From the NCBI GenBank assembly GCA_947034885.2, contig OZ019759.1, positions 16,060,501 to 16,124,500 of the forward strand: a DNA stretch of 64,000 bases, written 5' to 3'. The position numbers were made by a program, and so were the translations under genes. Every line of letters starts with the position of its first letter. The stretch's first letter is position 1. This DNA comes from Thuidium tamariscinum. Its lineage: Eukaryota; Streptophyta; Bryopsida; Hypnales; Thuidiaceae. This document shows positions 33,466 through 61,289 of this stretch, in pieces. The notes under the pieces were generated by a model, which was not told the DNA's origin, did no database searches, and saw only the letters and a program-made list of their open reading frames with translations.

Positions 33466-33481
33466 GGGTGAAAGTTGACTA

Positions 33482-35096
33482 CACTAGGTACTTTTTTGGC
33501 AAAATTTGAGAGTACCTAAATTACACTTGGTGTGTACTTTGTACTAAGTGTGCATTTATCATTGAATATTAGCCGTCGATTAAGGTTGTTGCGCGCCATT
33601 CGTTGAGATCCAGATGGACCAATGATGGCGAAGATGACCGCCAGTACATAGTCTCCCAGTCGTTGAAACCGATTGTAGCCGGTCATCTTCGTCTCTCTCC
33701 TTTTTTTCCGTTCACCACCCGTTCACTTTCCTTGGCGTGCAAGTTTGGGGGTTAGTTTGCGCTTGATTTTAGTTTCTTTTGCTTGTTCTGCATTGTGACT
33801 GCCGCACCATACTTTCAGCTTAGGGTTTAGAAGGCTTTGTTGATGTTAGAGAACATTGTGTTTGTAGGTTATTACTTTGGTTATGAAAACAGCGACTTTC
33901 TGTTGTGAGATAGCTCTGCCTCGGGTTTTTTCAATCTTACTTGGAAGGATGTAGAGTGTTTTTGATTTGCGTGGTTCACAATTCTCTCAACTAGCTTGGA
34001 AAGCGTGCCCTAAAGTCGGCAAATGGTTTCATTTTAGCATACAGAAGAAGGTACGCAACGAAACTTGTGTCTTTGCATGTGGTACCACTTTCTTTGTGTA
34101 TTACATGTTTTCTTATTGCATTGGTCATTGTTCATTAGATACATTGCGAAGTTCTAAATTTCTTGCTTTGTTGGTATTGCAGATTTGCAAAGGAGATATG
34201 AACAAAGGTTGACGGCGTTGTCAAGAAACCCTGATTTCTCTGGTATAATCTGCTTCTACGCTTGGTTAGTTTGCAAACTCCTCATGATTTCCTGCATAAC
34301 TAAACATGATAATGCTTATTGAGTTTAGCGTATGGTTTTGGGTCTTCCAGCGCGCGCCCTGTCTTTTCTATTTCGTTAGGGTTTAGGGTTTATTCCGAAG
34401 ATCCACTTGTTTTACCACTCGGTGGGGTGTTACGGTACCTTAAGTGAGCAGGAAGTTTAAGAAATCACTTATTAGGATTTGGGTTTAGGTTTTAGGGAGA
34501 CTTAAAGGCAGAGGCGAAGGCAAGACAGGGTGTGCGTTACCCGAAGCTTAGAAGCATCAGCCCAAGTTCCACAAGTAGTTGAGTACTTGAGATTTTTTTC
34601 TTCAAATTCTTTCAAAACGCAACCCCTGGGGATGGGTATGTTGTTTAAAGAGGTAATCCCAGTTGCAAAGATTGATCTGTTACAACATCGCAGCAAGCCA
34701 CATTGTTGGAATCCGTCCTTGGTTCTCCAATAGCTCCAACATGTGTGGTTTTTTCTGGCAAAATTTTAGGATTTATAGTAATTCTATTGTTTACTGTATT
34801 TCTTTGGGAGAATCTCTATCACGTCCCGATGGCTAGAGAGATGGTTGCTACAAAAGTTGTGTCCAGATCAAATACTCACTTAACTGTTTACCATGTCATT
34901 TGGACGGTTTAGGGTTCAATGGGGCACTACTTAAATAGGAGTACAACCCCAAAGTATGGGACGTTATTCTACGTTAGAATTCTGTTGTTTTGATTTTTCA
35001 AGAAACTTTCTTATACTGTAGGCCCCCCTTTAGGTTGGTGATTAAGTTAAGGATTTCTCATATTGTTGTTATTTCCTTGATTTTGTATAGGGTACA
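33482..35096 (+). promoter_or_regulatory. 5' region of the element D SET gene
   Basis: Between the left terminal repeat and the first ATG (35097). It holds GTACTTT/AGTACC motifs next to the terminus (about 33487, 33509, 33530) and TTTAGGGTTT telo-box-like words at about 33820 and 34380. The sequence just before the ATG ends in TGTATAG|GGTACA, a plausible acceptor, so a 5' UTR intron is likely. No start site can be fixed. Confidence 0.45.
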
Positions 35097-38000
35097 ATGA
35101 AGAAGAAGGTGACTGAGTCTGGAGGAAGATCAAAATCTGGACTGTCCTCTGCAACCATGGGTGAAAATAGCAAAGGGGATGGTCCAGTACTCACTGTTTC
35201 TGAGCTTGAAGGGCTCCTACATAGGCTTAAGCAACCTCCTGCCATTATGCAGTGGCAGGATTTCAAAGGAGCCTACCAACTTGAAGATGATGGGATGAAT
35301 CCCCACAGACTGAGGAAGGGGAAAGACGTCCCAGAAGAGATGATGATTGAATTATTTGGTAAGGGTCAAGGGGCTGGAGGGAGATCAGGATACGCTTGGG
35401 CGGATTGCAAAGACACTGAGGTGAGGTCGAGGATCCAGTACTTGCACCCTCTTGTGTATCAAACAGTTGATTTGGAGATTCCACGGGTTGTGAGTTGCCA
35501 ATTCGCTCGGGGTATTGTGTTTGAGCACAAAAAGAAGGAAAAAGTGAATTGGTGCAAATTTGGGGAGGAGACCAATTTGCACCAACGTATAAGATATGCT
35601 CAAGACAAAGCACAATTGGAATTTGCAATTCAAGAAGGGCTTCAGGTTACAAAAACGAGTTGGAGGAAAGTCAAGGTCCTTGTGCCCATTGTCAAGATGG
35701 AGGTGAAGGTCGAAATTGGAGAAGGCTCCTCTCGTGGTCAATCTGACGTTGGAACGGTTTGTTTTTCATATTATATTCTTTGATTGAAATTACTTGATTT
35801 TCAAATTGTTCAGCATTTCCTGTTCATGAACATTGGATCTAAATTCGATGGATATCAACCTTTGAGTGTGCAGTGTCTCACTTGTTTTAACTCCAGGGCT
35901 AGAAGTCTTTTGGTAGACATTAACTTTTTGATTTCAGTTCTTCTAAGTTATTAAATTCAATACCTCAAAAATGATGGATAGGTTTGCATTATAAGCATGA
36001 ATTACTAAAATGTTTAGAATTGAAGGTTTACGGTTTTGGCTTGGGTGTTTTGCAGTCACAATCTGCCCAACTTCGGCATTTCAATCCTGGGAGTGCTTTT
36101 CAAAGAGAAGCAGGCATAGGGAGCCCGACTACTGTGGAATATATGGAAAACCTATTTTGCATCTTGAATATGGAGTTGGAAGCACTATAGACAAGCTTCA
36201 ACACTGCAGTAACCAAAAAGAGTGAAGTTGGAGGTGAAGTAAGGGTTCTAGAGCTGGTTTGTGATTCATTCAGTGCCAAATTGAAAACGCTAATGAAAGG
36301 TGATTGTGATGTCCTTAATGAGGTGATACGTAAGAGCAATGAGGGAAAAAGAGCATTCATGGAAGAGATAATGGAGGAGAAATAGCAGGAGCTGAACGCC
36401 AAGAAGATGGAAGCAGCAAAGGTTGAATAAGAAGCTGAAGAATGTGAGAGAGTACTGCGTCTGAAAAAAATTATGCTTGCTAGTGTCAAGGCCGAGTGTG
36501 AACTTTTGAAGATTGGAAGACCAACCCTTGGTTTCCATCCTACACCTATTATCTATCCAAGCTTTGAAGTTGATGAAGATGATTTAGAGATGGACATGTT
36601 CCTCAAAATCATAACTTGTTCCCTTTGTGGTTTTGCATTTCCTAAAAGTGATATCATTGTGAGTAGTTGTAAACACATGTATCATCCATTCTGTGCCAAA
36701 ATTGTGTATCAAAGTAGGAATCGGTGTGTTGACCTAAAGTGCGCCCAAGCCTTTGTAGATCCTGATTGGTTTAGGAGCTTGGGAGTTGGAAAGGTCAACG
36801 TCGAATTACAAGAGAGGGCAGCGACTTTAGGGTGTGTTGAAGAAGATGCCAAGCTCCTGGCAAAATGTTACGAGGTTGCAAGGCTGAACTGCCCAGATAC
36901 AGGTATACTCACTTTTTTTATTTGCATTCTGTTTTTGTATGTCAAAAGTACTATTGCACTGGTAGATTGGTTCACAACATACATTTAAAAGAACTTACAG
37001 TATGTATTGGAATAAATTAGATAGTTTGTGAGTTCGCGTGTATTCTCACTTCTCATATGACAATCAAAAGTAGTCTGCAAATACTATTAGTAGTTCGAGG
37101 GTGTAGTTTATTGTACTCTTCTATAGTATTTAGTTAGTATTTTCAATACTAGTAGTTTTAGGGTAGTAATCACATGGACTCTATGTAGTTCTAGTATGTG
37201 AAGTTCTTAAACTTCTTGTCTTCAGACTACTGTAATTACTTTAAGTATTAGAGGATGTACATTCTTCAATACTAATAGTATTTTAGAAGTAATCGCATTG
37301 AATCTGTATAGTTTTGGTACATGAACTTCTTGAACATGTTGCCTTTAGACTACTGTAATTACTTTAAATATATTTAGGGGAAGTACATTCAACCAAAAAA
37401 GTATTTTTTTTTTTGGAGGTATGACCTGTATACTTACATGTATTCAGAGTACGATTTAGGACTACAAGTACTTAATGTCCTCTCACTTCTACAAATATTC
37501 AATTTTGAACTTTTTAACCTTACAGTACTATTTCCTGATTAGTACTTGAAGTTATTGGTTTCTTCTACAACAACTGTAATTGTGGTATTTGTAACTTTCT
37601 TTTCAATATATTATTGAATTTTGGAATTAATTATTATTTTTTTGTATGAACTACAGCTTCATCCTTGAAGGCCTTCTCTTCCATATTCACTCCTAAGGCT
37701 ACTTTCGGAGATAATAACAGTGAAGCCATTTTCCCTCCGGAGGAAAAAGGCCCTACCCCAATTACAAAGGGAGATTGGAAGAATATGCCTAATAGGCCTA
37801 TTCTAACACTAGAAGCCCAGGGATCCGTAGGAGGTGGATCCAAATCTGAAATCTCTCACAGACTTCCAAGAACTCCGATACCTCTAAGTTTTCAAGTAAG
37901 CAAGAGAGCAGATGAGCTCTTTGAGTATTTTGATGACGGGGGGAGGGGTCGTAAGAAAGCAGCCGTGAAAGAGGCTGAACTCATACAGGACAGCAGCTCG

Positions 38001-40858
38001 GATAGTGAAGAAGGTATTTCTCTATTTCCCATAATCCTATTCCAATTAAATTGATGTATTTTTTTTCATTGGTTCAAGGAGTAGGGTGAATGCATGTCTT
38101 TATTGTCTACAATCTTAATTTTACAGTCTAAGTTGGAATCTTTTGTGGGGTTTTTTACAACTGCTAAAGATTGCATGCATGCTTTATTCTTATAAAAAAA
38201 AAATTTGTTGTCTTGGATTCAGAACTCGTTCCACGTTTGCGCTCATCTTTTGGCACATCTATTAGCGATCCAGAGAATGACAATGCAGATCATACTGGAT
38301 CTGACCATACTTCAATCAAAAGACATGGACTAGAATATGAAGATGAAGGAGTGTAAGTTCAAAGTAAAGAGGGCAGTATAGAAATGGTGGAGATGGAGAT
38401 TGAGACTGTTTCAGAGACTGCAACATTACCACTTCCATCCAAGATTGCAACATCACCAACTACTAATTTATCCCAGGCGAAAGATGCTGAGAAGAGTACA
38501 GTGTTGAATGAAGTGGTGACCACAACTACAGCCCAGCCCAATATTCCAGCACCCTTGCCTTCGACAATGGAGCCTATTTCAGAGGACGTGGCCCCAGTAA
38601 ATGTAGATATAAGTCCGGAGTCTGGGAAGACAGTGAACGAGATCCAACTTCGGTCCAGTTCTAGGAATAAGAAGGTCACAAAAAGCTCAATCCAGAAGGT
38701 GAAGATTCCAAGAGGAGAAACAAAGAAAGCAAAGGGTCAAGCCGCCAAAGACTCTGAGGCAACAGACGGTGCAACGAAGAAGTGTAAACTCCCAACAGGC
38801 AACAGGGTTGGGAGAAGGGGTAAACGGTTTGCACCAGGAGAAGACAGTTTGGTGTAGAAACAGAGGAAGGTTGATGACCTACAATAGATGTAGTATAACA
38901 TTCCTTTGAAGGACCATGGAGTGTCATGTGCTCCTATGGTTTGTTTGTTTCTTAAGTTATTGCTCCATTTAATTTATTGTCAATGTGTTTTGTTGATTTG
39001 GAATTAGGATAGGAGATTCTGATTTTTGTTGCTTGACGTTTGAACCAGGACTCTCTCTACATAATAGAGGATTTGTCACGGGGCCTTGAATGCCATGCAG
39101 TTCCAGTGCTACGGTCTTCAAAAGGGGCCTCTCCACCTAGAGATTTCCAATATCTAATTCATAGTATAGTTTCCAAATCCGCTTTTTTGAATTCAAGTTT
39201 GGATCAAATTGGAGGTGGTTGTAGTGACTGCCAAGGTTGTTGTCTGTCTCTTCCAAAGTCATGCTCATGCAGAAACAAACTAAAGGGGTTTACCTACTTG
39301 CCTGGAGGATTGCTAAAGCCAAAATATATCAAACAGGTAAATCTTAGCACTGACTTTGTTGCAAGGTTGTTATTCATCTTCAATTTGTATTTTTGGATTT
39401 AGGGGAGTTCCTTTATATATTCAAACATTGGTGTGGACATGTTGTGCAGGCCAATCAAAATAAAGATTTGTTTTGTAGTGAGGGAGAGGGATGCTATTTT
39501 CTACTGGAAGGGGAAAAAGAATCCCAGGAATTCAAATGTCCTGGGCATTTTTCAATGGCCTTCATTGAAGAATGTAATGTTAAATGCAAGTGCCATGCCA
39601 GATGTAGGAATCGCGTGGTTCAGCAAGGCATGCAATGCCAAGTTCAGGTGCATTTTCTGACTTTTTAGCTCTTGTCATTACATAAATTTCAAGGGGTTTT
39701 GCAATTTGATTTTAGAACTACCTTAGTTACAGTTAGTGAGTTACTTTCACATGTCCCCCCACAACAATTAGATCAAGAAGAAAAGACTGTTGAAGTTCAC
39801 ATTGGGCAACTGCTGTACATTTATTACAAACAATTCCAATATTTTTTTTCATACATTAAAATAAATAAATGTTTTTTCTGTTGGAAGTAAAAAGCAATGC
39901 TTACTTTGTGCTTCATAGTCTACAATTTTGATTTTCTTTTGAATATACAATGCCCAATCTTTGTCTACAGGTCTTTCACACTAGAAATCGGGGCTAGGGT
40001 GTAAAGACAATGGTGGATTTAGAAGCTGGGAGGTTCATATTTGAACTAGCAGGGGAGATACTAACAAATTATGAAATGATGCAGCGAAACAAGAAGTGGC
40101 ATCACGAAATGGGATTCACACAATCTTACTCCTTGCATTTGGATGTAGATTGGCCAACAGAAAGCAAGGCTACAGATAACATTGCCTTGTGTATAGATAC
40201 TACAATGTTTGGCAACGTTGCAAGGTTTATGAATCATAGGTAAGATTCTTGTTGCTCTTTCAGTCTTTGTGGCACAAGTTTAGTTCCCTCTACAATTTCA
40301 TTGAAGTTTTTTTAATCAAACGACAAGTAATCAAAACATTGAAATGTTCCATGCAGATGTGAAGATGCTAATGTTATAGACATGCCAATAAAAGTCAATG
40401 AAGGAGACAATCGATTTTACCACATTGCTTTCTTTGCCAAAAAGAAAATCATGGTTGGGGAGGAGTTGACATGGGTACGTTTCGATCTGGGTTTTTTTTC
40501 CACCTTAAAACACATGGGTAGCTTAGGTGCATGGGAGAATTTGCATAACTATAGAATTTCACTCTTTACCTAAAGTTTTTATGTTCATGTGACTACTTGC
40601 AAACTAATTTATCTTATGGCAATGACCTACAAGCACATCAACTAGTACTTTTTATTTTCAGTTTACTAAGTAGAGGTATACAGATTATGTTTCATTCAAC
40701 ATTAATTTCTTTTCATTTTTAGTTATCTTTAGATAAAGTTTTGTGTTCATTTACTTGCAATGCAGGATTACGGTGAGGACTTTAAAACAAGTTCTGGTGA
40801 CCTACCTTCTTTTGAGTGTTTCTGTGGAAGTGCTCATTGCCGTGACAAATCCAAATAA
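35097..40858 (+). pseudogene. RING-like plus pre-SET/SET/post-SET histone lysine methyltransferase (SUV39/SUVR-like), 9 exons, 8 in-frame UAR stops
   Basis: Exons (all GT-AG, phases matching): 35097-35756, 36056-36902, 37657-38013, 38223-38938, 39049-39336, 39450-39647, 39971-40239, 40357-40474, 40766-40858. They sum to 3546 nt, 1182 codons. Order: unknown N-terminal region; Lys/Glu-rich coiled coil; RING-like finger (CSLCGF...SCKHMYHPFC...CVDLKC); Ser/Lys-rich linker; pre-SET Cys cluster (CSDCQGCCL, CSCRNKL, ECNVKCKCHARC); SET with FELAGEIL, VARFMNHRCEDANV and GEELTWDYG; post-SET CFCGSAHCRDK, with TAA three residues later. Canonical NHSC and the LTYDY tyrosine are NHRC and LTWDY here. Stops: TAG 36188, TAG 36383, TAA 36428, TAA 38354, TAG 38855, TAG 38885, TAG 38891, TAG 39995 (first base of each); the last replaces the usual Trp of RGWGV. 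There are no frameshifts. Expected role: H3K9-type methylation. Confidence 0.85.
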
Positions 40859-43800
40859 ATGGATTTTAATAGATAAATTCAGCTGTACAGTACACTATAC
40901 AACCTTAGGAACTAGGTTCACAAATACCTTACATTGCCAATTTCATTAATTGTTATCATACCCTTTACTACACATTGATAGTTAAAAAAAGATGATCTCT
41001 AGGAGCTTTGAACATTTTATTTGAAGCCCTAGTTTAGGGATATGATGCCATTTCATTTTCTGAAAATATTGCATTCCATAGCTTCTGGTTGCTTAGAATT
41101 TATGTTTCAGCAGTTGTGTTTAGAATTCATCATTCAAGGAAATGCCTAACTCATCTTTGTGTGATTGAGGTTGAACCAAGTGACGATTTTAAGTTCCATT
41201 AAGTGATTCAATTTAGGATTTCATTGCAGGTTGAAGCAAGAAATAATCAGTATTCAAAATGTAAGCTGCCATCTATGTTAGTAGCAGCACTTGAATGGAT
41301 TGCAACATCGCCAATGATAATGGCACTTGAATGGTTCATAGTAATGCTGAAAAGAGGTAATCATCATTTTCTTTGAGTCTTACCTATGATTTACTATATG
41401 CAGGCTCTAGATAGTGTAAATCAATGCTTCAAAACAGTTGTTAATACTAGCCAATGATGGATGTCATATACACCTCTTCCATATTTAATGGGCAAGGAAA
41501 TAAATACATTTCATGATATGCTGCATTTATTGGATGTGATTTATAATCCTGGATGATTTCAGTGTCAGGGTTACACGGCAAGAGCAAGAGACTTCACTTG
41601 CAAGTAGCTGCGATGATAACAGCATCCTCTACCCTAATGGTCCAATCTAGGCAACTCACAGGTAATAATTTTTCTTCTTCATCCTTACCTCATCATTAGA
41701 AGTAGGCTCTTAAATATTGTTTTAGCTTTGATGTGATTTCAGAAGTAACAATTCGGGTTTGAACAATTGTAAATTTTGCTTGGTTTAGGGTGAAATCTTT
41801 GGATGCCTTCCTCATAACATAGAAACACATTTCTTTTTCAATGGTCACGGTTTGGGTTTCCAGGTAGAATTAAAGTTCACTTGGGGTTAGAGAATGCATT
41901 CAAAGTTCACTATCAAGCTTGAATGCACTCCTCAGTCATTACTCACAAGGATAATGAAGCGATTATCTGGAATCGCAGTGGTCCCTTCCCCTGCCGATTT
42001 CTTTAAACTTTCGTTATTGATTTTGTTTTGCACTTCATTCTCTTCATTGTCCAGCCGTCTCGGCTTGGTTGTTTTGTTCCCGGGTTTTTGGTAATGCAAT
42101 GGCTCGCCCATTTGTTCAAGGAAAAAAAAGCTTGAATGCACTAAATGCAAGAACCTATCAATTACTCTTTCATTGCAGGTGTAGGCTTCATAATGTAGAC
42201 AAATTTAGTTGCATATGTTTTCATTTTATTATAGAGAGATTCAATGCAAGCTGCAGTTGCTAAATCAGAGCTCAAGTGACTATTACTTAGGGTTTTTTCT
42301 AAATATATCTTTCCAGGTTCCATGTTCCAGATTTGGAGCCATTCAATGTGGTGTGCAATGATTGTGCCTCTGAAGATATGTGTACCTATTTTTAAATAAT
42401 TTGTGAACTTCTTTTGAATTGCACCTTGGAATGGACGGTGACTCAGTGTTTTTTTATTAGATTTTGTTTTTTTATAGGAGCTTCAGGGATGAGATTAGTA
42501 CAACCTTGGAAAACTGTGATTCATTGTTACCCAAAAAAACAATGAGTCTATTCTTAGAAGGGAAGATGAAGGCTGGAAATTGAGTGTGGGAGGCATTTAC
42601 TTTCGGCTTCACTTTGTTTCTCCTGCTGCCTGTTTACTATTTCTCACTTTATAGATACCGCCATGAGTCTAGAATTTCATGGTTATATTTAACTTTGGCA
42701 TCAAGAAGTGAATTGGTCTCCCATTTTAGTCGCCCTTCTATTTCTATCTAGTCGTCCTAATGCTCAAAATAAACTACAGAGGAGAATGTTTAAAAAAAAC
42801 CTCATTGACATTGGGCTAGTAGGTTGTCCCATTTAGTCATTCCGAAAGGAGCAGGAAACTTTTGTGGAATATGAAGTATTCAACTCATTTGGTTTTAAGG
42901 TTATAGGGTCAAGGTTTAGGGCTTAGGGTTTAGGGTTTAGGGTTTAGGGTATGGTTTGATAAGAATTAATTAATTTAAATAATGTTATTGTATTCATGGA
43001 TGGAAATGAAGGATGCACTGTGTATCCTTTATGGAGATTCTCATTCAACTAAATGAAACTTGACAAAATTAATCTCTCGCTATTCAATGTTCAATTCTAT
43101 ATTCGATATATTTTTCAGCACTTTATAAATTTGTAGGGTATTTGTGTGGTGGCTAAATAATGCATTCTAAGATAATCTTGAAATCGCCTATTGAATTTTA
43201 AGAAGGTTTCCTCAAAAGAAGGTTAAAAATAATAACAAGAATTATTATAAATTGCACATTTTTCTTATTCAAGGCATAGTTACCTTATCAATATGGAAAA
43301 GAATTTTTGGACCACTAATTCACTTTCATGGCTTGGATCAAAGATGGTTGACCACATAAGTTCATATTCTTTATCCTTGTAGAAAACATTGAATATTTTT
43401 AATTTGCCACATATGATAAATTTAGGAATTGCAAAATTCATATTTAGAATGAGAGACCCTATATTAGCTATGGGTTGTGAATAAGCACAACATTTCACTA
43501 GCACAAAATATGAAACTTGTTTTTACATTTATCTTTTAATGAAGTAATATAAGGTAGTACTTTTTGAAGAGCAAACATTTAAGGGTTGCTTTGCCATTCT
43601 CCATAGGTTTGCATGAATACAAATATTTTTAAGAGAAAGAAAAATAAATGTCAATTGTAGTACAAGTGGTTTCATGTCTTTGGTTACCATTTTTAATTAG
43701 CTATAAATTTTGGTAAGGGTTTAGGGTGTAGGCACTGATTTGGTGACAAAATATTATTTTCATTTAGAGAAGAATAGATACTTATTTGAAATGGTGCCCT

Positions 43801-46800
43801 CATAGTAGCCCCAAAAAAGTTTTGCTAGAAAACCCAAAATTATCAAGCAATCTTCATAATTATATTAGAAATTATTTTAAGGTCATTCTTCCCTACATTT
43901 TCACAAATGATTTAAATACATCAAATATCTCTTTACACTAGAGGTGAGAATTGAGAAGTTGTGGGGATCAAGATCTTGGCCAATGACACCTTCCAAAATT
44001 GAAAGGATTCAAGATCGTAATTTCACTCTTTATTATAATTCAAACTTTTCTTTCCAAAAAATGCCATGTCATTCAAAAAGAAATTTAGTTTGAGGATGTG
44101 AACAAAGTTTTTGTGGCCCCAAAAAGGGGCATGAGTTTTAGGCCCCTTGAAATTGTAGGTTGGCCTACATCGAGGCTTAAATTATAAGGGATTTGCACCT
44201 CTAAAGTCTCATATACATAGAATGGCCCAATCAATAATGGTGAATTTCATAATATATATTACTTAGAACATGCGTATGTGAATCACTTTTGTAATAGAAA
44301 TTGATGGATTTTAACTCATATTAAAAGAATTCATACTTGTGAACGTACATGGTGAAAGATCAAATATATGAATTTGATTGATTACTTAATGTTTTTCATT
44401 TGAAATACATATAATGTTTACAAAATCACTTGTCAAAATAGGGGAAGTTTAAAAAAAAAAAAATAGGTACTTATTAGAATAGGGGAAGATTTATTTTTTT
44501 AGAAAATAGGTACTTGTTAGAATAGGGGAATATTTTTGTAAATAGATTAGAATATGCCTAAACCTTCATAAATAGAATTTCAATAGGCCACTCCATGTAA
44601 TTCTCTAACAATTAGTGAAATTGTTTACCAAAAGTAGAAGAAAATAAATGAAAAGCTAAAAATAAAATATGAGCATCATTCCTTTATTTTTGAAGTACAA
44701 AAAATAGGAAGAGTAAGAATAAACTCTAACATAAACAAGACAATGGAACCCGCTTCATTTTTTAAAACAAAAAAATTTGTAATAAAAAATAAAAAATGAT
44801 TATTTTGGGTTCATGAATTTGAACATTAATAGAATCCAAGAGCATTGTTTCATTGGAACATAGTCTCCAAGTAAAAAATCAAGATGTTGAAGAGATGTAG
44901 ATGTAAATATGATTTAAATTTTAGTAAATAATCTTAGATAGAGACAAAAATATAAAATGCAAGTAATGCTAGCTTTATTATATAAGACCACATTTGGAAG
45001 AAAAAGATTCTTTATTGAGAGAAGAATCACTCAATGCTTCAATGCTTTTGAAGCATATTTATACTTTTATTTTTGCTTGAAGGAGATTCCTAGTGGCACT
45101 TTTTATAAGAATAGGAATAATCATGAACCTCGCAATTTTTAATCAACATTCCTATCTATTTCATTCAATTTTGAAATATTAGAAGAATTCATTGATTTGG
45201 GTACACTGTAGGTAATTTGGGACAAATTGTATCACAATGCATCTAAGATACAAATTAAGAAAAAAGTTATAACTTCCCCCCTTCTTCAAGTTCTAAAAAT
45301 ATTTAATTAATTTGAGATGATAAATTATCTTGTCCCTGTTTAGAAGAATATTTTGGATTAGACATCTATACATTAAATTAGCATGGTATATTCTTTTGCT
45401 TTTGGGGGAATGGATTCAAAATGGGATTCTTTTCATATGGTGATTTTTTGAACTTTTCGTGTTCTTGAAATCTATGACCTCGTTTTTGCAAACCCAGTTT
45501 TAAACTAAAATTTGTGCAATTTTTGACTTAACAAACTTCCACATCTGTTATTCTAGAAAAATAGAAACTCTCATAACACCTAATCGAACCATTAGATAGG
45601 CCGGCAACTTGATAAAAAATCACCAAAAATTAGATGACTTTCATCCAAGCAGTACTGAGAAAGAGAGTTCAGTTTCAATAAGTACATCGTCCAAAATTAG
45701 TTATAAATTTTTGAAGTAAAAGGATACACTATAGAATTAAAAAACAACTTTGGCAATCCTATTTTATATAAGAAAAAATGGTCTAGAAATGAACAAAAAA
45801 AATCCTAAAAATAGTTTTTCTATTCTAATCTCATTTTGAATTGAATATTGATGAAAAACTCATCTAAATGTATTTTCTTTAAATAATTGAGAAAAAAACA
45901 TGCCATTTTGGTTCATTTCCAACCTCTTCTAAAATCATTTCATATCTTATTTGAATTGTAAATTTTGGCAATAGAAACCTATAGTCATTATTAAAAAATG
46001 TTCAAAATTTTAGGTTGACATTATTTTTTTTTCTAAACCACTTGATCGTACGTGATTTGTTAAAGTAGACCTAAATGCACTAGCTCTTTCTTTGCTGCAA
46101 ACATCATAATATGGCTAGAGTTCATGATGTTTCATAGAATAATAACCAAAATCCAAGAGCTAATTGAGGATTTAGAGATTTACAACTCAATTTAGGTATG
46201 TTATAGACTTCTACTATTTGCAACCCATTAAGGTTGAATGAAAATGTCGAACTAAAAACAAAAGTACCAACCATTTATTGGCATTTGATAGGACGCAATA
46301 GTACATATTTAATTTATTAATTTTTTTAAGGCACATGTCAACCTTTCCTTGTAAACGTGATTCATTTGGTGAGGGTGCACAAATAATGTAAGTACCATGT
46401 CCTTTTTATGTGTGAATTGCTAGAATACCTTATAAAAATGAAACTTTGTCTATTTTGAAATAGTTTAGCTTTAAAGAATAGTTTAGGGTTTAGTTCTAGA
46501 GCGTATATATGATGGTATTTCTAAATATTTTATAAAATTGTTAGTAGTTTAAACAAAATACTTCTTATTTGTTTCTAAGAAATGCATTGTAATACACTAA
46601 AGTAGGGTGTACAATCTAGTACACTAACCTTATTGTTGTACACTTCCATTTACACTAGAATTTGTCCATACAATATTGTGGAATGCAAAAAGAATACAAT
46701 CTATTTTATATCGATTGTTGGTTTGTGCTTGGTCCCATACAAATGTCATTGATGCAAATGACCCTTCCAAAGCTAATAAAGTCAGCTATTGTTGACCCTA

Positions 46801-48439
46801 TTAATTTTCAACCTTTTATATTGTAAACTTGCTCCTTGTTTTTTTTTTCCTTTCTTTCATGTATGGATAGGCCAACTTTGAAGCGTGTATATTGAAGTAT
46901 CCATGATTTTCAATTGCCCAAGGATAAAAATCCCCAATTCTTGGTTGACTAGAGCAATTGAATTGAAATCTAGGCTGCAGCTCAAGTCTGGAACAATTTG
47001 TAGGTTGTCAGTCTAGAGATTCCTCTTCCAGTTTCGGTAGCGCCACTGCCTCACCTAAAAATACTCGTCTTCTCCTTATCAACAAATCTCTCTCTGAGCT
47101 AAATCCAGGCATCCATAGACTTTGGCTTTTGTCCTTCATGCCAAGAGCATCGAAGCATCCAAGTTGTGCGCGACTAAAATAGCGTGAGAAAAAAGTGTGG
47201 ATGGAAAGTAATATGCCTTTGTTCTCACTTTCCTGGCACAAGAACATTTGCGGAGCACTACATGGTTCAACTGAATCTACTTTATCCTCGAAGCAAGCGA
47301 TCAATTGTGGCTTTCACTCTCAACAACGCCCCATGACTGCTCCATTATGGCTCCTACATTTTCTATATAAGATGCATTGTATTTTTAGTTTTGGACATGA
47401 AAGTGCTCTATCACCTGCAAAACGTGCACCCAAGCACTAGCTCTCATCTTAGAGTGACTTTCATTTGGTGAGTTCTAAATGTTCAATTCGCAGTTGGTTC
47501 CATGCTTTTTGGAAAGGGCATTGTGCTTTGCTATGGGTCTCTTCTATGTTGATTATGTTATGCTAATTATGTGGATCTCCAGAAAGAAAAATGTATTTTC
47601 TTAGCACTAGTTTCCACTTGTTTTTACCCATTAAACATACTACATTACGTACAAAATTGGCACAAATCAGGAGTACTTTGAGTGTACAACTTCCTCCTCT
47701 AAGTACTTAAAGTACTTTAGCTGAAATCCCATTAGGACATGAGGTAACTTTGAACCAATCATTTTGGAATATGAACTTTAAAAATTAATATACCATAAGT
47801 ATCTTTACAAACAAAGGGATAAAAAAGTAGTTTAGGGATGTATTTTGTAGAGGGAGGTGCTATGCTTCTTCTATATCATATGCATGGAATGTTAGTCTTT
47901 GGATCAAAAACAACAATGCAAACATAATTAGACAACTTGGGAATCTCTCATACACTCTAGTAGGATAGATGAACTAAAGGTCCAATTAGAGCCTGTATTT
48001 TTCCCCAAGAATGTTGATGAAATCTACTTTTCTAATATATGGACTCACTTTAACTCACATGTTTGGCTTCAGACACCTCTCCTTGCATACTGGTGGATGA
48101 ATTACTTGATGTCTGCTTATTGGCCTCTATGGATGTTTAGAAAAGCAATGAATGAATATCACCATATCTGAGGAAGACAATGAAAGCAAAAGGGTGAAGA
48201 AAACAGGCTTCCAGATTAATTAAAATGGTAGAGGTATACAAAGAGTAATTTTGGCAATGTGAACTCAAAATACTCAAGAAATACATAAGAGAACCTAAAC
48301 CTAAACAGAAGAAGCCACATGTATGATAATGAGGAAATTGAACTACAAACCTAAACTCTATAAATGGTAATGACAGTCAACATGAAACTAGTACAGTGAT
48401 GAAAATCACCAAAAACAAGTGCACTATTAAAAATCACCT
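40859..48439. other. Long non-coding interior of element D
   Basis: About 7.6 kb between the two convergent genes. I see no further coding exon with a recognisable domain; short ORFs (for example 47008-47304 minus) lack support. It holds a short TTTAGGG tandem (about 42919-42950), very AT-rich tracts (43.0-46.9 kb), and element D's AGTACT motif clusters at about 47670-47730. Older nested insertions are possible but no ends were found. Confidence 0.5.
42916..42950 (+). repeat. Interstitial telomere-type repeat (TTTAGGG)
   Basis: About four consecutive or near-consecutive TTTAGGG units, the Arabidopsis-type plant telomere repeat, inside the non-coding interior of element D. Too short to be a telomere. 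Confidence 0.75.
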
Positions 48440-51400
48440 CTAGGCTTCATTTTGTTCCAACCACTCCCTCAATGACTGATGTATGACTTCAATTACTTCA
48501 GATGAAATCTTGTAAACTGTATCTCCTCCTTTCACTCGGTAGGCAGCTTGCTTCATGGTGAATTTGCAGGCACAAACTAGGTGTGCACCCACATAAGCAG
48601 TGACAGACTTGTCCAAGTACTTGTATGTCTCCTCTCCACGCCCAAACTTCTTGTAATATGTTCCTTCGATGACATATTCACCTGCATCAAATTCTCCACC
48701 CCACGAGCACTGAAGTGGACTTGTTAGTTGGTACTTCCGTCTCTGGCATTGGAGTATGTAAAACTCCACATTGTCGTCATTGTTGTCCTCTGTAGGGACT
48801 ACAAAATTGTCTCCTACGTCCACAAGGTCACCTAAATCCCCGTCAACACCTTCAAAACCTGCATATCAACATGGACCACAATGAAAGAAATTTTGCAACT
48901 GTATAAATTTCATACAAGGAAATAATTCACATGAGTCTAAGTAGAATTAGTTGCACAAGTATACATATGACAATGTCACACTAATTCAGTGAATTGGAAT
49001 GCCAAGTCACTGTAGATGGTCCATCACAGAGCAACAAGTTACTTTGTTTAACAACATGATTTTTAATTTGGTCCCTAAATCACAAACTCTTAGAACTACA
49101 TGTATGGAAATAATTGCCACTAGCTACAATATAGAATTAAGGTCAAAAACTCATTGCCTTGAATGTAATTAAAAATTAAATCAACATGAACGATCCATGC
49201 AAAGGGTGAAAGTATACTACCTAAGGTATAAAATGAACACAAATCAAGAGTACTTGGAGTCTGCATTTACTCCTCTAAGTACTTGAAGTAATTATGAGGA
49301 AATACCACTTGCACATGATGAAACTATAAATATGCCAATATGCTCTACTTCATATATTTATTTGAATGGTAATAAACCTAGCAATTTATGTACATTGAAT
49401 CAATGGGAGTAGACTAGGATGGAATGAATTTCATAGTAGGGCAATTGAATCACACTTATGAATTCGAACTCATCTAGTTCTTCATGATCTTCAGGTGCAG
49501 CATTAGTAGTTTTGGGTTGCAACTTCCTAACACGCCAAGGTTGTACATGAGCCTTCTGCTCACAATTCTCCCAATCTTCCTCTACACAAGGAAGACAAAA
49601 ACAAGAGAGCTTCCTCACCAACAAGCGAGTATTGTCAGAAGAAGAATTTCCCATCACTGAATGTAGTGAACGAGAACCCGATAAGGTGGCGCATGCAAAG
49701 CTGTGCCTCTTGTCAACATCATTCTCTCCAATGTGCCAGAATGTCCTCACAATAGAATTCGTAGTAGAGCAGGTGTATGAACTACGGGGCCTGGTAGAAA
49801 ATCCTTCTTCTAAAAAATCAACACACTGGGAGGCACACTGCAAAGGGCGCTCAGGGTTCCTAATTTGCTCTTGCCGAAGAACGCGCTTTACAACAGCTCC
49901 AGCGCCATCCCATTCTCCTTCATCAATAAACAAAAGTTGTGTACATGGTGATGTTAGCTTCAAAGCCCAGCAAATTAAACCATGTAGTGAATGTACAAGT
50001 GATTACAACATGAAAAACATATCAATATAGAAGTGGAATTCACATACCTTTCCCGTGGCCGGAGGCAAAGAAGTTCCACATCATGGTGCAACCACCGGTG
50101 AGACTAGGATATCGAGCTCAAAATAGAGAGCTGTAGCCCCCTTAAATTGTGCAGCACATCCATCGCTAAACACCCAATGATCAAATGGCCTATCCTCATT
50201 ATTCAAAACCCATTCCCAATGTAGGAGCAGACAATGTTGAACAAACAAGGAGTCATGCTTCTTATCATCTGAGAGATAGAAATGAGTGTGCTTCTGGATC
50301 ACAAGTTCACCTTCAGTAGATCGCACCTTCCTGAAGGTAAGGTGAACAAGCAAAGTCATGGTTTGAGACATGTAGTACATTGACTGTACCTCATTTTGAA
50401 TTTGGAAGTTGTAGTTTTCTGCAAAGTCAATGTGTGAAATGAAGACCCCTTCTGGAACATTGTCCATCATGTCTTTGCACTGTTGGTCTTGCCAATTTGC
50501 AATGATGTTGTCCTTAATAAAAGCAGCTACTTTGGGCTTCAAATATGCAATGAATTCCCTAGGGCTTGTTTCCTTGAAAACTTCATTGAGCCTCTTTTTT
50601 TCCTTTCCGGTCTCAGACTAAGTTCCAAGTGTGATGTACTCAAAACATTTCCAACGTACCTTCAAAAAAGTATAATAGCAAAATTAGAAATGAGTGAGCT
50701 TGTTTTAACAATGAATGCAAACTTCAAACTAAAGATGAATCAAAACAAAAAATTAAAATCAACCTCCTTCATGAAAACTGAAAATAAATATAAATTGAAA
50801 GTGAATGGAAACTAAAAATGAACCAAAAATGAACCAAACATGAAAGAAAACTATAAGTGAATTGTAGTGCAAAGCTAGAAATTAAAAGTACTTAGAAATT
50901 AAAACCGAAGTACCACAAGAAAATTGAAAATGAATCAAAACAAAAAACCAAAAATATTTTTAAAATGAAAAGAAATGAATAAAAAACAGAAATTAAGCAA
51001 AACTCAAAAATGAATTAAAAGAAGTAGAGTGAGAAATGAATCAAATAGGAATCTAAACTCAAAATGAATGAAAACCAGAAATGAATAAAAACTAAATCAA
51101 ACATTAATGAAAATTGAAAATGAGTCTAGAATTTGAAAATTGTTTTAAAACTAAAAATGAAAATGAAGCTCCCACAGTAAAACTTAAGATGAATGAAAAC
51201 TTAAAATGAGTGTATTCCACACTAAAACGAATCAGTTATAAAACTAAGCATGTTTCATAATTTAAATGATAATTAATTTTCAAGACAATGTTTTCTATAA
51301 ACCATCATCATACCTTATATTCCCCAGAAGTACAGAGCTCATGAGGACAGAATTTCAGCTTCTTGACACCACAGTCATGGCATGTTCCCATAACACACTC

Positions 51401-52967
51401 TAGCTAATGCCATTGATCCAATTCCCCTTTGGGACACACGCAATCTAGCCACAACAAAGTAATTCGTTTGTAGCCAACAGAATGAGCGCCACGTGTTGAT
51501 TGCACTTCATCTCCTGTAGACTCCATACAAAGTGGGCAAGAGCAGGAGCACTGCAAGTATACATGTAGCCTCGCACTAAATCTCTCATTACATTCAGTCC
51601 AACTCGCATAAAGTCCATTTCGACATGGTAAATGCAACAACAGACATTGCGATCCTTCAATGGCCGAATGTACCAAGGCTTCATCCTCTCAAAAGTGCGT
51701 TGGGCAATTTGACACTCTAGGTGGGTCTCCCTGAACTCCAAGAAGAATGCAGTCTGATTGCACATGCATAAAAAATGAAGTGTTAGTGTGACTTACAAAG
51801 TAGATCAGTAGTCAATTGCAAAGTGTAAGAAAAAAATCAGAGAAGTGACAAGTACAAATATGACTCCTACTTGTACCATATACCACACGAAGTATAGTTT
51901 TGGAAAGCATAAGTGATTTTGAAAGTTATAAATAATTTATTTAGTATTGCAAATGACTTCAAACAATACCTTCAATGATATTTGTACTAGTTTAAACTAC
52001 ACTAAGTACATCTATGAATACAATACTTAGGGTATATATTGGGAATACAATAGAGTACAACAAAAATATTTTGTAGTATACACATATGTTATTTTAGAGC
52101 ACTTTTAAATTACATCTCATATACCTCAGTGAATGAATAATAAAATGAAAACAAAAGGTGGTATAGGAGAATAACCTGTGTAATAGTAAGGTAATGTGTA
52201 GCGTGGGTTAATCCTCCCTTCTTCTCACCTCCATCCTTATTGACTACATCCTTCCTATTTGAACTGACCCTAGTCTTCTCATGCCACTACAGTTTCACCA
52301 TTTCTGCTGTATATGTAGTTGTACCATCTTTCCTTTTCTGCCTTTGGAGAAGAGTGAATCTTGATGTTCCTTCATTCATTTCAGATTTTCTGTCCAAAGC
52401 TGCCATGATGTTGTCAGGCTTGGTTCCAAGTACCCTAGCCAACGCCCTCACACCACCGACTCCTTCACTCACTGTTGCATCAAGCAATGCACCCTTCCTG
52501 GATAGCATATGGTTAGAGAAAGGGATGCTAAGGGCTTCTAACTCACCCTTAAAACTTTGAATGAACCTGTGGATACTTAGAGCCTCTGAAGGATGGGGGT
52601 AATAGGAGGGCAATAGGGGCCAAATCGTGTTGTGCCTGAGGACCTTTTCGAGTACATCTTTCCAACTTTGAGGATCTGGACAACTTAACAATTGTTCAAG
52701 AGTGTAGTTTCTGATTTTTTGTGCAACTCTGCAGGATTCCCTAGAAGAAAGGACATCTACCTGTCCTGCCACAGTCACTGTAGCTAGAGAGGCAACCTCC
52801 TCAGCTTGAATCCGCACTTTCTCTCTACGGGTTTTTTTATAGATCCGGTTGCACTCTAGTGTCTCCTGCCTCTGTACCTCAAGCAATTGCTCTTGTAAGG
52901 CTCTCTCAGCAGGTCCAGGCCGGGTGAGGCCTTCTCTAGCTCTCCTTCGCTTAGCAGAATTACCCAT
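48440..52967 (-). pseudogene. DDE-like transposase gene of element D, five exons, three TAG stops and two frameshifts
   Basis: Exons: 52967-52176, 51753-51314, 50659-50048, 49917-49456, 48858-48440. The protein starts MGNSAKRRRAREGL and has a helix-rich N-terminal part; a Cys-rich segment (RNVCCCIYHVEMD, CSCSCPLC, CVMGTCHDCG) suggests zinc binding. The RNase H-like core reads HIDFAENYNFQIQNEVQSMY, then VFSDGCAAQFKG, then across a perfect phase-1 junction GHGKGEWDGAGAVVKR, giving candidate catalytic D, D and E/D. I recognise this as a transposase-like family known mainly as uncharacterised proteins of animals, but have no firm name. TAG stops at 52287-52289, 51404-51406 and 50618-50620; one-base deletions are implied near 51550 and 50090 by the exon lengths. 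The stop is TAG 48440-48442 with TGA two codons later. Confidence 0.75.
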
Positions 52968-53140
52968 CCTGCATAAAAATGACAACAATTGCATACATAA
53001 AATATTATTTGTCATAGTACAGGATGATTCAGGTATACTTCACAAAACTTCAATGGCCATGGGTGAATAGTTTAGATGAATGCTAAAGGTGTATAAAAAA
53101 TTTAATGAAAACTAAATTTCAAAAGTGATATAATAAAAAA

Positions 53141-53575
53141 CTATCCTAAATAATAATAAGTCAATCTGTTCAGATAGAGTAAGAGACTTATGGAGTTGGA
53201 GTTTGAAGAATCTACCCGAGATTGGATAGATTCTTCTAGTACATCAGGTAGTATGACACCAAACAAAGAATCAGGACCTTTAGCCAACCGTTTGCGTGAA
53301 TTTGCCTCAATCTTTGAATAGTGCATGTACCATGCAAGGTTCCCAACTTCTGAGACCGGAGTACCTGAGATGTGAGTATCTTGGACAATTGAATGACTTC
53401 CACGTAAGCTACTAGACTGAGCTTGTGGACTCAATGCAATAATGGAGTTGGTACAATGTGGATAATAATTTGTTATCAATTGTTGCACTAGTTGAGGAGG
53501 CTGCTTCTCAGAGTAATAATCGGTAATCACAGTTTGAACAAAAGGAGAATCCAGGGACTTCCTTTCTCTAGACAT
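53141..53575 (-). CDS. Unassigned ORF upstream of the element D transposase
   Basis: A 144-codon frame starting at ATG 53575 with ordinary amino-acid composition (Gln, Ser and Tyr rich). It lies about 0.17 kb upstream of the acceptor preceding the transposase ATG at 52967. It may be a first exon or a separate small gene; no donor joins it in frame to 52968. No domain recognised. Confidence 0.35.
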   Translation of the reverse strand: MSRERKSLDSPFVQTVITDYYSEKQPPQLVQQLITNYYPHCTNSIIALSPQAQSSSLRGSHSIVQDTHISGTPVSEVGNLAWYMHYSKIEANSRKRLAKGPDSLFGVILPDVLEESIQSRVDSSNSNSISLLLYLNRLTYYYLG

Positions 53576-55140
53576 TGATCCCTAATTGTAGAAAACATAC
53601 AAGGAATTTAAGAAACAACACTGTGCCCTTGCATCTTACGTTACCTGTAACAAGCGATGGCAAATGGATTAAAAAACATTGAAACCCTATATTATAAAAT
53701 TACTAATCAATTACTAATAAATAAAAATATGAAAACACAATTATCAATGACTGAATGTTGCAAGGAAGATGACTTGGAAACATACAAGTGCAGGAAATGG
53801 AAATACCATCAGCATCCAAGCTCACAGCAAAGAGTATACAAGATGCACGTTGATATATAAGACGTTGTCAAATTCAGTAGGTAGCTCTTTCACCCAGATT
53901 TGCCATCGCCAAATCCCCTGTGAAAATAAGATAACTTAAGGTTAAAAAATAAGAGTGCAAATCAATTATTATTTATGCTTAAGCTTAAGAAACTCCAAGT
54001 TAAAGAAAAATATGTCGCTAATCACAAGCGTCTTCACCCCAACACAAACATATAGTTTTTTAATGTATAAAACTGTGTATACTGAATTAAATATAATCCT
54101 CACGTAAATAACCCTATTCCAAAGTCTTGCAATGCGACTATTCCTGTAAGCAAATGTCACAATTTGGCCATGAGGTTCACATTGTCACTGTATTAGTTAT
54201 ACTGGTTACAAGTGACATCACTAGTTCTACTATACACAATTGTCCTTCAAAGCACATATGAAAGTAAATTAGTCAATGGGATTGCAATATCTCCCCTAGA
54301 AATATATGTAATTGTTCATATCTAACATTCTAAAAGAGAACAAGTTTTATAAATTTAACAAGTACAATTAAAATGGCAACTGCCCAGTGTAGTTGTATTA
54401 TGAAACTGAACTCCTAAGACCTCTTCTATGTTTTCCTATTTATGAGAAGGAAAATTTTTCAGTTTGTTTTTGGTAATCAAAACCATGACAATTCAAATGG
54501 AAATGAAATCACATTGTCCTAGGTACTAAAATGGTAGAATTCAGGAGTACTTTGAGCTTTCCTTTACTCCTCTAAGTACTCCTCGGAATACATTTACTAC
54601 TGTAAGAATTCCTAAGTACTCCTTCATATACATTTACTTCCCTAAGTACTTCTCTAAGTACTCCACATTATACATTTACTCTTCAAAGTAATAATAGAAA
54701 TACATTTATTTCTCAAAAAACTCCTCGAAATACATTTACTCGTACATGTACTTCTCTAAGTACTCTTGAAAATACTCTACAAAATGCATTTACTCTTTCA
54801 GTACTACTCAAAATACATTTACTCCTCAAAGTACTCCTTAAAATACATTTACTACTCTAAATACTTATCAGAATACATTTACTCCTCTACAAACTCTTCT
54901 AAGTATTCCTTAAAATTGATTTTCTCCCCAAAGTGTTCTTATAAGTACTTCTCAAAAATACAATAATTTCTTGAAGTACTCCTAGAAATACTCCCCATAA
55001 TACATTTATGCTTCTAAGTACTACTGATTGTATTCCTCAGAGTACATGTACAAATTTCTCCTCGAGGAGTAATTAGAGGAGCAAATAGAAGAGTGAATGT
55101 ACATATTTCTACCAATAGCTGCTTAAAGTACTCTTGATTT
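53576..55140. repeat. AAGTACTT motif cluster in element D
   Basis: From about 54540 to 55130 the sequence is an irregular array built from CTCTAAGTACTCCT and ATACATTTACT words, giving some twenty AGTACT or near matches. The same words recur singly at 47670-47730 and 49245-49290. The first part, 53.6-54.5 kb, is AT-rich with nothing recognisable. Confidence 0.7.
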
Positions 55141-55339
55141 TTTCAATTCTTAATAAATATTATATATATACCATTGCCTAAACCATTGGGACCGTATTTG
55201 GGATTATTCAACAGAAATGGAGACATCTTTTAGCTCTTAAGTCTTTAGTTTTGTAATGCAAGCTACATACTTAGTCAATTGTTGGTATTCTGCTGTTGTT
55301 TCTACTTTAAAAAATAGTGCTCAAAACAACTCTAAGTGC

Positions 55340-56600
55340 TGCCTGAACTGAAGACATAGTGAAGGTGGAACCCATAGAACTTGAGAGATAGATTTGCACA
55401 TTTCAAACACTTAAGTGATTCCTAAGACTTGGGTGTTGCCCTGCCTCCGCAATGTAGCTCCTTCCACCTACAAAGTCGGGCACACCAACACAAATATTTG
55501 GATTCGATGAACATCATATCTTGTTACAGTTGTTTTTCTAAACCCTGAACTTCAGCAAACTGTAAACTACAAGTGACCACCACAGATTTGAGGCGCTAAA
55601 CAGGCAATGGAAACAACTGTGACCAAAATCTCAAAATATTGGCAAGTCAAACCCGTAGGTTGAGAAAACGGTGGCGTAGTGTGCTTCTACAGCTTTATAA
55701 AACCGCACGCATAAAATATGTTGATTGAAAGTACAATTGGGATCGTACTCTGGATTATTGAACACAAATGAAAACGTCTTTCTGCTCTAACATCTTCAGT
55801 TCTGTCATGCACGCTACATACTTAGTCAATTACTGGTATGCTAGGGCTGTTTCTATTTAAAAAAGGGAGTCAATGCTTAAAAGTATTGTAAGTGTTCCAT
55901 AAACTAAAGTGAAGGTGAAACCAATTGAACCTGAGAGACGGTTGCGTACATTCCAAACACTTGGGCATTGCCTTCCCTTCGCAACTCAACTCTTTCCACC
56001 AACAAAGTAAAATACAACAGCTCAAATACTTGGATTCAACATCGTATCCTGTTACAGAGGTTTTGGCAACCGTGAACTTGAGCAGCAAACCGTAAACTAC
56101 AAGTGACCACCATAGATCCGAGGCACTAGATAGGCAATAAATAAAGTTCTCACACTAAATCACGAAATCATGCAGGTTCAAATCCATTGTTGAGAGACTC
56201 AACACAGTGTGCACGCAATGAATTACTAATATGCTAGGGCTGTTTCTATTAAAATAAAGGAGTGCTTAAAAGTATTGTAAGTGCTCCATGAACTAAAGTG
56301 AAGGTGAAACCAATTGAACCTGAGAGATGGCTGCATACATTCCAAACACTTGGGCATTGCCTTCCTTCCGCAACTCAGCTCTTTCTACCAACAAAGTAAA
56401 ATACAACAGCACAAATACTTGGATTCAACATCATATCCTATTACAGAGGTTTTGGCAACCCTGAACTTGAGCAACAAACTGTAAACTACAATTGACCAGT
56501 GCCAAAGATCCGAGGCGCTAGATAGGCAATAAATAAAGTTCTGACCCTAAATCGCAAAATAATGCAGATTCAAATCCATTGTTGAGAGACTCAACATAGT
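55340..56600. repeat. Diverged direct repeats, three copies of a ~400-bp block
   Basis: Blocks starting with a GTGAAGGTGRAACC stretch at about 55362, 55910 and 56299 share further landmarks in the same order: CTTGGGYRTTGCC, CCAACAAAGTAAAATACAACA (or near), TTGGATTCRA, GTAAACTACAA and GAGGCRCTA. The first copy is the most diverged. No coding capacity is evident. Confidence 0.7.
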
Positions 56601-56639
56601 GTGCACACAATGAAACTCAAATCGTCACGGAATTGTCTC

Positions 56640-57389
56640 TGTTGCAGTGCTCAAACAACAAGAACGGTGCATGGAGGGTGCATGCTACAAAACGAAGGGA
56701 TGACAGAAGAGAGATTCTCTCCATGAAAATAGGATCTCATCCGCAAGTGTAGGAAAATGTACGGTCAAGATGTGAGTGTACTTTTTAACGAACGGTACAG
56801 ATTACACTACAAATGTACTTTACATACTCGTAATACTTTTTCTACATTTGAGTACTTTTTGCAACTGTCGGCGGAGAATTTCATGCACCACAAAATACAT
56901 GTATTTTAGGGGATCTAACCATTAGCCATCCTAGAAGACACATATATAAACATTCCAGAACCGCAATATCAGCCAGAAAATTCCATTCCTTATCCGCTTT
57001 TGGCTGCAGAAAAGAATGCCACATCAGCTCCAGATTTCGAGAAATCTCTACAAATAAGCCCCGTTTATCTTCAAGAAACCCTGGCATATGAATATATCTC
57101 GTAGTTTATTATAAACCTACGTCAATCTAAACCGTCAATTTTCCTTCACAAAGTACTTTCCACTTTTTTAGCAAATCTGATGTACTTTGGATTCTTACAA
57201 AAGTACTTTTTACAACTAGTATAAAACATTTCTACAGTTTGATGGCAATCGAAAACAAACTAATAGCAGGTTACTCACCTACTTCTTCTCATTAGGAATC
57301 AAAAAGATTTGGTTAAGCATTTCAAAAAAGTACCTTCACCAGAGTACATTCCATAAAAGTACTTTTCTGACGTACTTTTTAGGGAGGGC
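56640..57389. repeat. Right subterminal region of element D with GTACTTT motifs
   Basis: GTACTTT/AGTACTTT words occur at about 56772, 56815, 56853, 57150, 57183, 57202, 57325 (GTACCTT), 57341 (GTACATT), 57357 and 57372, in both orientations because the core AAGTACTT is palindromic. The left end of the element has the same words. Such subterminal repeats are typical transposase or regulator binding regions. Confidence 0.7.
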
Positions 57390-57406
57390 GTAGTCGACTT
57401 TCACCC

Positions 57407-57410
57407 ATTT
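57407..57410 (+). repeat. 4-bp target duplication ATTT, right of element D
   Basis: Matches 33462-33465. Confidence 0.85.
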
Positions 57411-57778
57411 GAAGATTGTAAAGAATCCTGCCATTTTTTGCAATTGAATTCAAAGCCTCTTTTCTCTTTAATTTCACTTAAAGGAAAGTAGAAAAAAATG
57501 GGTACAAGTTGGAATAAGTAGGACCTTGAATGTTGTATGTATAATATAATGTTGATGGTTCTTTTTCCCGACTTTCTTATGTATTTGATGATAGTAAAGA
57601 ATCCTGCCATTTTTCGCAAATGAATTCAAGGCCTCTTTTCTCTTTAGTTTCACGTAAAGGAAAGCAAACAAAAAAGGGGTACAAGTTAGAATTAGTAGGA
57701 CCTTGAATGTTGTATATTTAATATAATGTTGATGGTTCTTTTTCCCGATTTTCTTATGTATTTGAAGATAGAAGGCCA
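57411..57778. repeat. Continuation of the ~176 bp satellite, about two units
   Basis: Resumes exactly after element D and its ATTT duplication, in the same orientation as 30604-33465; landmarks lie at about 57580 and 57757. It stops abruptly at about 57771 within GAAGATAG, where unrelated AT-rich sequence begins. Confidence 0.9.
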
Positions 57779-61252: not shown

Positions 61253-61289
61253 TCTGCAAAAACAAGATCACTTCATTCAGAACCGAATA

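Follow-up and report, generated by a model that had tools for sequence, protein, structure and literature searches.

A plant DNA transposon clade that carries a SUVR4-type SET methyltransferase gene convergent with its transposase gene

DNA transposons that encode SET methyltransferases are known from oomycetes, where the HarbingerS and MuDR families of Phytophthora carry them (Kojima and Jurka 2014, as cited in PMC12730594), and TET/JBP genes are carried by many fungal transposons according to the same account (PMC12730594). Here we describe a 23.9-kb transposon in the window, a 64,000-nucleotide stretch of contig C11 (17.5 Mb) in the 363-Mb, 19-contig genome of the plant Thuidium tamariscinum. 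Like the Phytophthora families as described, it is a DNA transposon with a SET methyltransferase gene; whereas those families live in oomycetes and move by Harbinger or MuDR transposases, the host here is a plant, the transposase is a DDD enzyme of a different type and the target-site duplications are 4 bp long. The SET gene here is of SUVR4 type and is accompanied by a RING-like module. The explanation that best covers the observations as a whole, and which we consider probable, is a cut-and-paste clade whose SET gene was captured once, has been retained by selection and acts on histone H3 lysine 9 (H3K9) methylation of the elements. A sequence-only reading of the window had taken this gene content to be unusual for DNA transposons, a view that does not hold, since SET is common in the clade and SET-bearing oomycete elements are published (PMC12730594). 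Our literature search, whose coverage did not extend to Repbase Reports, found no plant transposon with a SET gene; SET-bearing DNA transposons are thus known, and what is new to the literature searched is a plant clade combining a SUVR4-type SET, a RING-like module and this transposase.

HarbingerS elements have a Harbinger transposase and make 3-bp duplications. Membership in that family was rejected on the 4-bp duplications and the absence of a transposase domain by Pfam, and membership in MuDR/Mutator, with duplications of 7-12 bp (PMC10741241), is ruled out by the 4-bp duplications. Sola elements are described as encoding a DDD transposase and producing 4-bp duplications; their ends measure 11 bp or more, some of them exceed 15 kb, and they occur in the moss Physcomitrella (PMC10741241). 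Compared by description only, the elements here resemble Sola in their DDD transposase and in 4-bp duplications that are exact in 13 of 15 large and both of two short elements; a SET gene, present here, goes unmentioned in the description of Sola in PMC10741241. The anti-silencing VANDAL transposons, as presented in PMC12730594, provide another likeness, that of a transposon gene acting on host silencing. SETMAR/Metnase, as described, also joins a SET methyltransferase to a DNA transposon, but it is a gene of the host in which SET is fused to a domesticated transposase, and it is immobile. The VANC protein of VANDAL elements is not a methyltransferase, in contrast to the SET methyltransferase gene found here.

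The boundaries of the element were recovered as the sequence-only reading had proposed them, namely a unit of about 24 kb with terminal repeats, an ATTT duplication and a satellite unit that is restored when the insert is removed. The transposon occupies 33466-57406 of the window; its inverted ends measure 17 bp, its 4-bp duplication is exact, and these features lie at its borders:

30605-33465, resuming at 57407-57771, no strand: 176-bp satellite array, the interrupted target (period 176, 88% matches)
33462-33465, no strand: target-site duplication ATTT, left copy, directly before the left end
33466-33482, + strand: left terminal inverted repeat GGGTGAAAGTTGACTAC
57390-57406, - strand: right terminal inverted repeat GGGTGAAAGTCGACTAC
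57407-57410, no strand: target-site duplication ATTT, right copy, directly after the right end

The terminus pattern has three matches in the window at up to three mismatches, against 0.21 expected, which rules out a chance origin of the ends. When the flanks are joined (120 + 120 bp with a single ATTT), they align over their full length to satellite units with 86.6-91.6% identity and 0-4 gaps, which is the ordinary divergence from unit to unit.

The + strand of the element carries a SUVR4-type gene with pre-SET, SET and post-SET regions at 39047-40858, and a RING-like block lies upstream:

35091-35780, + strand: first coding exon or open reading frame (ORF) of the RING-SET block, 42-46% identical to the families at C10:18.4 Mb and C2:8.87 Mb
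36431-36985, + strand: RING-H2-like module, C-x2-C-x12-C-x1-H-x2-H-x2-C, then C and C-x3-C; other families keep the module
37650-38051, + strand: low-complexity linker ORF, probable RING-to-SET exon in the inferred gene model
38357-38854, + strand: low-complexity linker ORF, likewise a probable RING-to-SET exon of that model
39047-39336, + strand: pre-SET exon, bounds approximate
39450-39647, + strand: pre-SET exon, ...CRNRVVQQG...
39971-40240, + strand: SET exon (Pfam SET, E 7e-7), with an in-frame TAG at 39995-39997 in the GWG motif
40358-40474, + strand: SET exon CEDANVIDMPIKV...EELTW
40766-40858, + strand: post-SET exon DYGEDF...CFCGSAHCRDKSK

Profile searches, which had been suggested for both regions, bore out SET in one exon and left the RING-like stretch at a Pfam E of 0.003, below the curated cut-off. 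RING-H2 ubiquitin ligase domains have C3H2C3 zinc ligands with a final C-x2-C; judged by eye, the spacing here fits these ligands except for the final C-x3-C. As the linker exons are open and their borders splice-like, RING and SET are likely to be encoded as one protein. The gene resembles plant SUVR4 in its NHRC..NL and TWDYG motifs and in its pre-SET and post-SET regions; it differs in being a transposon gene with a RING-like module upstream and in that no WIYLD ubiquitin-binding domain was seen in the scanned ORFs, from which short exons could escape. A C10-family ORF gives Pfam matches to pre-SET (E 6e-13) and SET (E 1e-9), the nearest solved structures to the SET domain are EHMT1/2, SUV39H2, SETMAR and Clr4, and those of its database relatives that are named as such enzymes are the plant SUVR4 proteins P0099, P0106 and P0120, at 39-49% identity.

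The transposase gene lies on the - strand in six ORF pieces, convergent with the SET gene, and holds a terminus-like sequence that was absent from the earlier description:

48443-48865, - strand: transposase C-terminal exon
49204-49220, + strand: third terminus-like sequence, located within an intron of the transposase and differing from the pattern at two positions
49403-50002, - strand: transposase exon 3' of the catalytic core
50084-50617, - strand: transposase core (IDFAENY...SDGCAAQFK), frame broken directly after it, ahead of HGKG
51448-51792, - strand: transposase N-terminal exon
52290-53039, - strand: second transposase-side ORF (MGNSAKR...), kept in other families
53144-53581, - strand: third transposase-side ORF (MSRERKSL...)

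Five of the six pieces in the window copy were searched against Pfam with no match at E 0.1, the core gave nothing over the cut-off in Pfam and NCBIfam, and a transposase profile had no match among PDB sequences; because the window pieces lack a Pfam match, the transposase was identified through its relatives and the fold model of one of them. Three residues are conserved among the relatives, D174 in 48 of 49 rows, D257 in 50 of 51 and D299 in 46 of 48, and we infer that they form the catalytic triad. The modelled relative has RNase H-like fold matches, the integrase rows coming from VIA-align; Foldseek by itself returned only low-probability NurA and Argonaute rows.

That a single mobile unit brings in both genes, as the sequence-only reading had claimed, is shown by independent copies with 4-bp duplications of their own. 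A genome search with the end motif found three close relatives of the window copy by their ends alone, and two further families were delimited:

C11:15130053-15155162: close copy, duplication TGCA, about 98% identical to the window copy over aligned parts
C11:12665737-12691812: close copy, duplication TCCA
C11:4282015-4349118: close copy broken by inserts, 67 kb, duplication AAAA
C10:18433462-18450233: second family, 16.8 kb, perfect 21-bp ends GGGTTGAAGTACACTAGACCC, duplication CCAA
C2:8872555-8889099: third family, ends GGGTGTAAGTAYGCTA, flanks TCTA/TCTG, not exact

Thirteen further matches to the right end region of the C10 family terminate at one common point, give or take a few bases. Nine more end pairs of the third family, one of them a close variant, were chosen for having SET and transposase matches between them, from the listed portion, about half, of 210 end matches; eight of the nine have exact duplications (AGTT, ATCA, TGGT, TCTA, AGCA, TCAC, ATAT and TTTT). 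Altogether, exact 4-bp duplications flank 13 of 15 large elements, the window copy included (14 of 15-27 kb and one of 67 kb), and every one of the 15 contains a SET match as well as a transposase match. On the question raised earlier of whether copies with the same terminus always contain SET, the three close relatives found by ends all enclose both genes, while the remaining 11 of the 15 (the C10 element and the third family's ten) were located or selected by means of their SET and transposase matches. One facing end pair, C1:51889249-51904386 (1 + 2 mismatches), holds no SET or transposase among the matches listed and has unmatched flanks (ATAT/TTTT); it was counted neither for nor against elements lacking SET. 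Short elements of about 0.8 kb share the ends of the clade, with exact duplications in both of the two checked. The unit is thus mobile and its gene set recurs across families, which together define a large clade whose members have 17-21-bp ends beginning with GGGT, 4-bp duplications and a DDD transposase, and whose usual gene content is a RING-like module followed by a SUVR4-type SET, pointing toward an oppositely oriented transposase.

The same arrangement was found genome-wide. Counts of SET, transposase, RING-like and end-motif matches refer throughout to the matches listed; they are lower bounds and do not establish absence. The window SET query gave 169 matches, the best 150 of which merge into 89 loci, and the transposase core query gave at least 150. 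A transposase match lies within 30 kb at 74 of the 89 SET loci (73 convergent, 1 divergent and 0 in the same direction), against a mean of 3.8 and a maximum of 10 loci paired in 200 runs of random placement, for which some contig sizes were approximate. With a Pfam SET scan added (123 matches), there are at least 134 SET loci, 95 convergent, 1 divergent and 38 without transposase, the last including probable host genes. The RING-like module occurs in at least 150 places, 101 convergent with transposase, 2 divergent and 47 with none, where random placement gives about 5; at 64 of the 89 loci it precedes SET in the same orientation by no more than 15 kb, it follows SET at none, and 25 of the 89 lack it among the matches listed. 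Counted in reverse, 97 of the 150 transposase matches listed have a convergent SET and 2 a SET in another orientation. Gene order and orientation are constant at loci whose SET identity to the window falls as low as 41%, and SET exons are free of stops in many of the matches listed. SET is common in this transposon clade and no oddity. C11 alone holds 27 of the 89 SET loci, or 1.54 per Mb against 0-0.28 on ten other contigs counted (some sizes approximate), and is a repeat-rich or possibly sex-linked chromosome.

To place the SET gene, a tree of 39 rows was built with seven transposon SETs of this genome and a single host gene. The seven, with unnamed database relatives, form one clade (support 98/98), whose nearest neighbor is the host SUVR4-like gene C1:41482090 (95/82), followed by Closterium and angiosperm SUVR4; the tree thereby upholds the proposed SUV39/SUVR-type identity and specifies it as SUVR4-type. 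The host gene has no transposase within 30 kb among the matches listed. Between the C10 and C2 families, the ratio of nonsynonymous to synonymous substitution rates (dN/dS) is 0.16-0.18 for SET (dS 1.3-1.5), 0.16-0.26 for pre-SET and 0.20 for the second transposase-side ORF, while dS of the transposase core is saturated. Two pairs of database proteins come from contigs of equal size in the same source (transposase P0044 and SET P0107, 5,267 bases; transposase P0067 and SET P0113, 213,937 bases), which suggests that SET and transposase are linked in other assemblies as well. Given the co-location, the tree and the dN/dS values, a single capture from a SUVR4-like gene of the host is the most likely origin of the SET gene, and its upkeep by selection across families is supported.

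According to a review, Arabidopsis SUVR4 converts H3K9me1 to me2/me3 and binds ubiquitin (PMC7218100), two statements of that review disagreeing on which product needs ubiquitin. The transposon SET protein is presumably an active H3K9 methyltransferase that would act in trans on element chromatin and alter the H3K9 methylation state by which the host silences the elements, and the RING-like module, probably part of the same protein, may provide the ubiquitin cue that enzymes of the SUVR4 type recognize. Because Arabidopsis SUVR4 binds ubiquitin and the module adjoins SET, the pair suggests a ubiquitin-coupled writer. Most likely, such an enzyme would change H3K9 methylation on element chromatin, thereby either softening silencing or limiting damage; the sequence-only reading had envisaged an influence on the silencing mark or a marking of target chromatin. 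A narrower version, that the clade as a whole encodes a RING-SUVR4 fusion, a writer equipped with its own ubiquitin ligase, which turns H3K9me1 into H3K9me3 on element nucleosomes and so diverts these nucleosomes from the loop of H3K9me2 and DNA methylation silencing, we offer tentatively; if true, the fusion would be an anti-silencing device built from silencing machinery.

Several observations weigh against a captured, selected and active SET gene. The 15.13-Mb copy shares the stop in the GWG motif of the window SET, a different stop interrupts the SET exon of the 12.67-Mb copy, and among the four close copies only that at 4.28 Mb reads through; dN/dS of the main SET exon among these copies is 0.23-1.53, from few changes, as expected of decaying close copies. 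With its SET stop and broken transposase frame, the window copy is a decayed family member, and the claim that it encodes its own methyltransferase holds for the presence of the gene and not for its integrity; the lesions differ between the close copies. Further, 51 of the 150 transposase matches have no SET within 30 kb among the matches listed (72 before the Pfam SET scan), between-family dS is 1.1-2.6 where computable and near saturation, and the SET tree, for which the program warns of long branches, includes one host gene only. Flanks are inexact at C2:8872555-8889099 (TCTA/TCTG) and C6:4903819-4919819 (ATGA/TCCA), and the AAAA duplication of the 67-kb copy falls in a run of A.

Capture of host genes is common among DNA transposons, and SET could be a passenger, acquired from the host a single time and of no benefit to the element, as the stops in the main SET exon of the window copy and two of its three close relatives would allow. 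The constant order and orientation down to 41% SET identity, the purifying selection on SET between two families and the many matches with stop-free exons make this improbable. Alternatively, the methyltransferase might restrain the element, or steer insertion into heterochromatin through H3K9 methylation, with less damage to the host. The window copy did insert into a satellite array, transposon chromatin is a site of SUVR4 action in Arabidopsis (work cited in PMC7218100) and 27 of the 89 SET loci crowd onto the 17.5 Mb of C11; however, that satellite insertion is the single one seen and 13 exact duplications share no common sequence by eye, leaving such a role possible if doubtful.

Looser histories of the two halves were weighed as well. 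The SET side could be a module of its own that spreads between transposons, as TET/JBP genes do in fungal transposons, with loose pairing to the transposase. The 12.67-Mb copy points this way: its dS from the window copy is 0.07-0.17 in the RING/SET half and 0.87-1.1 in the transposase half, by which C11:12665737-12691812 is a mosaic, its SET cassette exchanged between transposase lineages, and this speaks against strict co-inheritance of the two genes. Over 70 of the 74 pairs, however, SET and transposase similarity to the window copy are correlated (Spearman 0.74, or 0.62 without the closest), and the linked SETs form one clade in the tree; we regard spread as a free module as unlikely. The terminus-like sequence at 49204, in the correct orientation, could instead mark a chance composite, in which an 8.2-kb transposon (49204-57406) took along a SET segment through one-time use of an outer terminus. 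This sequence is present in the 15.13-Mb and 4.28-Mb copies and absent from the 12.67-Mb copy, which nevertheless has the same layout, as do other families; the transposase gene spans 49204, with the exon at 48443-48865 conserved beyond it. The gene crossing 49204 and the 12.67-Mb copy lacking that terminus rule out a composite origin, to which we assign next to no probability, and 49204-49220 looks like a nested end fragment.

The usual view of H3K9 methylation has transposons as its targets; in this genome, a large and varied group of elements comes with its own SUVR4-type writer. With at least 95 SET loci convergent with transposase in one genome, it can be tested directly whether an element edits the mark used against it, and SET gene counts in such plant genomes may be inflated by transposons.

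Within the element, a degenerate TTTAGGG tandem of plant telomere type lies at 42894-42950 and, like the SUVR4-type host gene, points to a land plant. Diverged internal direct repeats of about 67-90% identity lie by the right end (54563-56614), and GTACTT/AAGTAC hexamers are concentrated at 54.5-55 kb and 56.5-57.4 kb of the window. The element is flanked by two related coding stretches on opposite strands, 26940-29339 (+) and 58406-61267 (-), with about 68-69% DNA identity. The right-hand stretch has a DUF7869 match (E 2e-46); a comparison of this neighbor protein with the element transposase detected no relation. Farther left, 3071-3919 (+) encodes an NLI-interacting-factor-like phosphatase domain (Pfam NIF, E 1e-16) and is probably a host gene.

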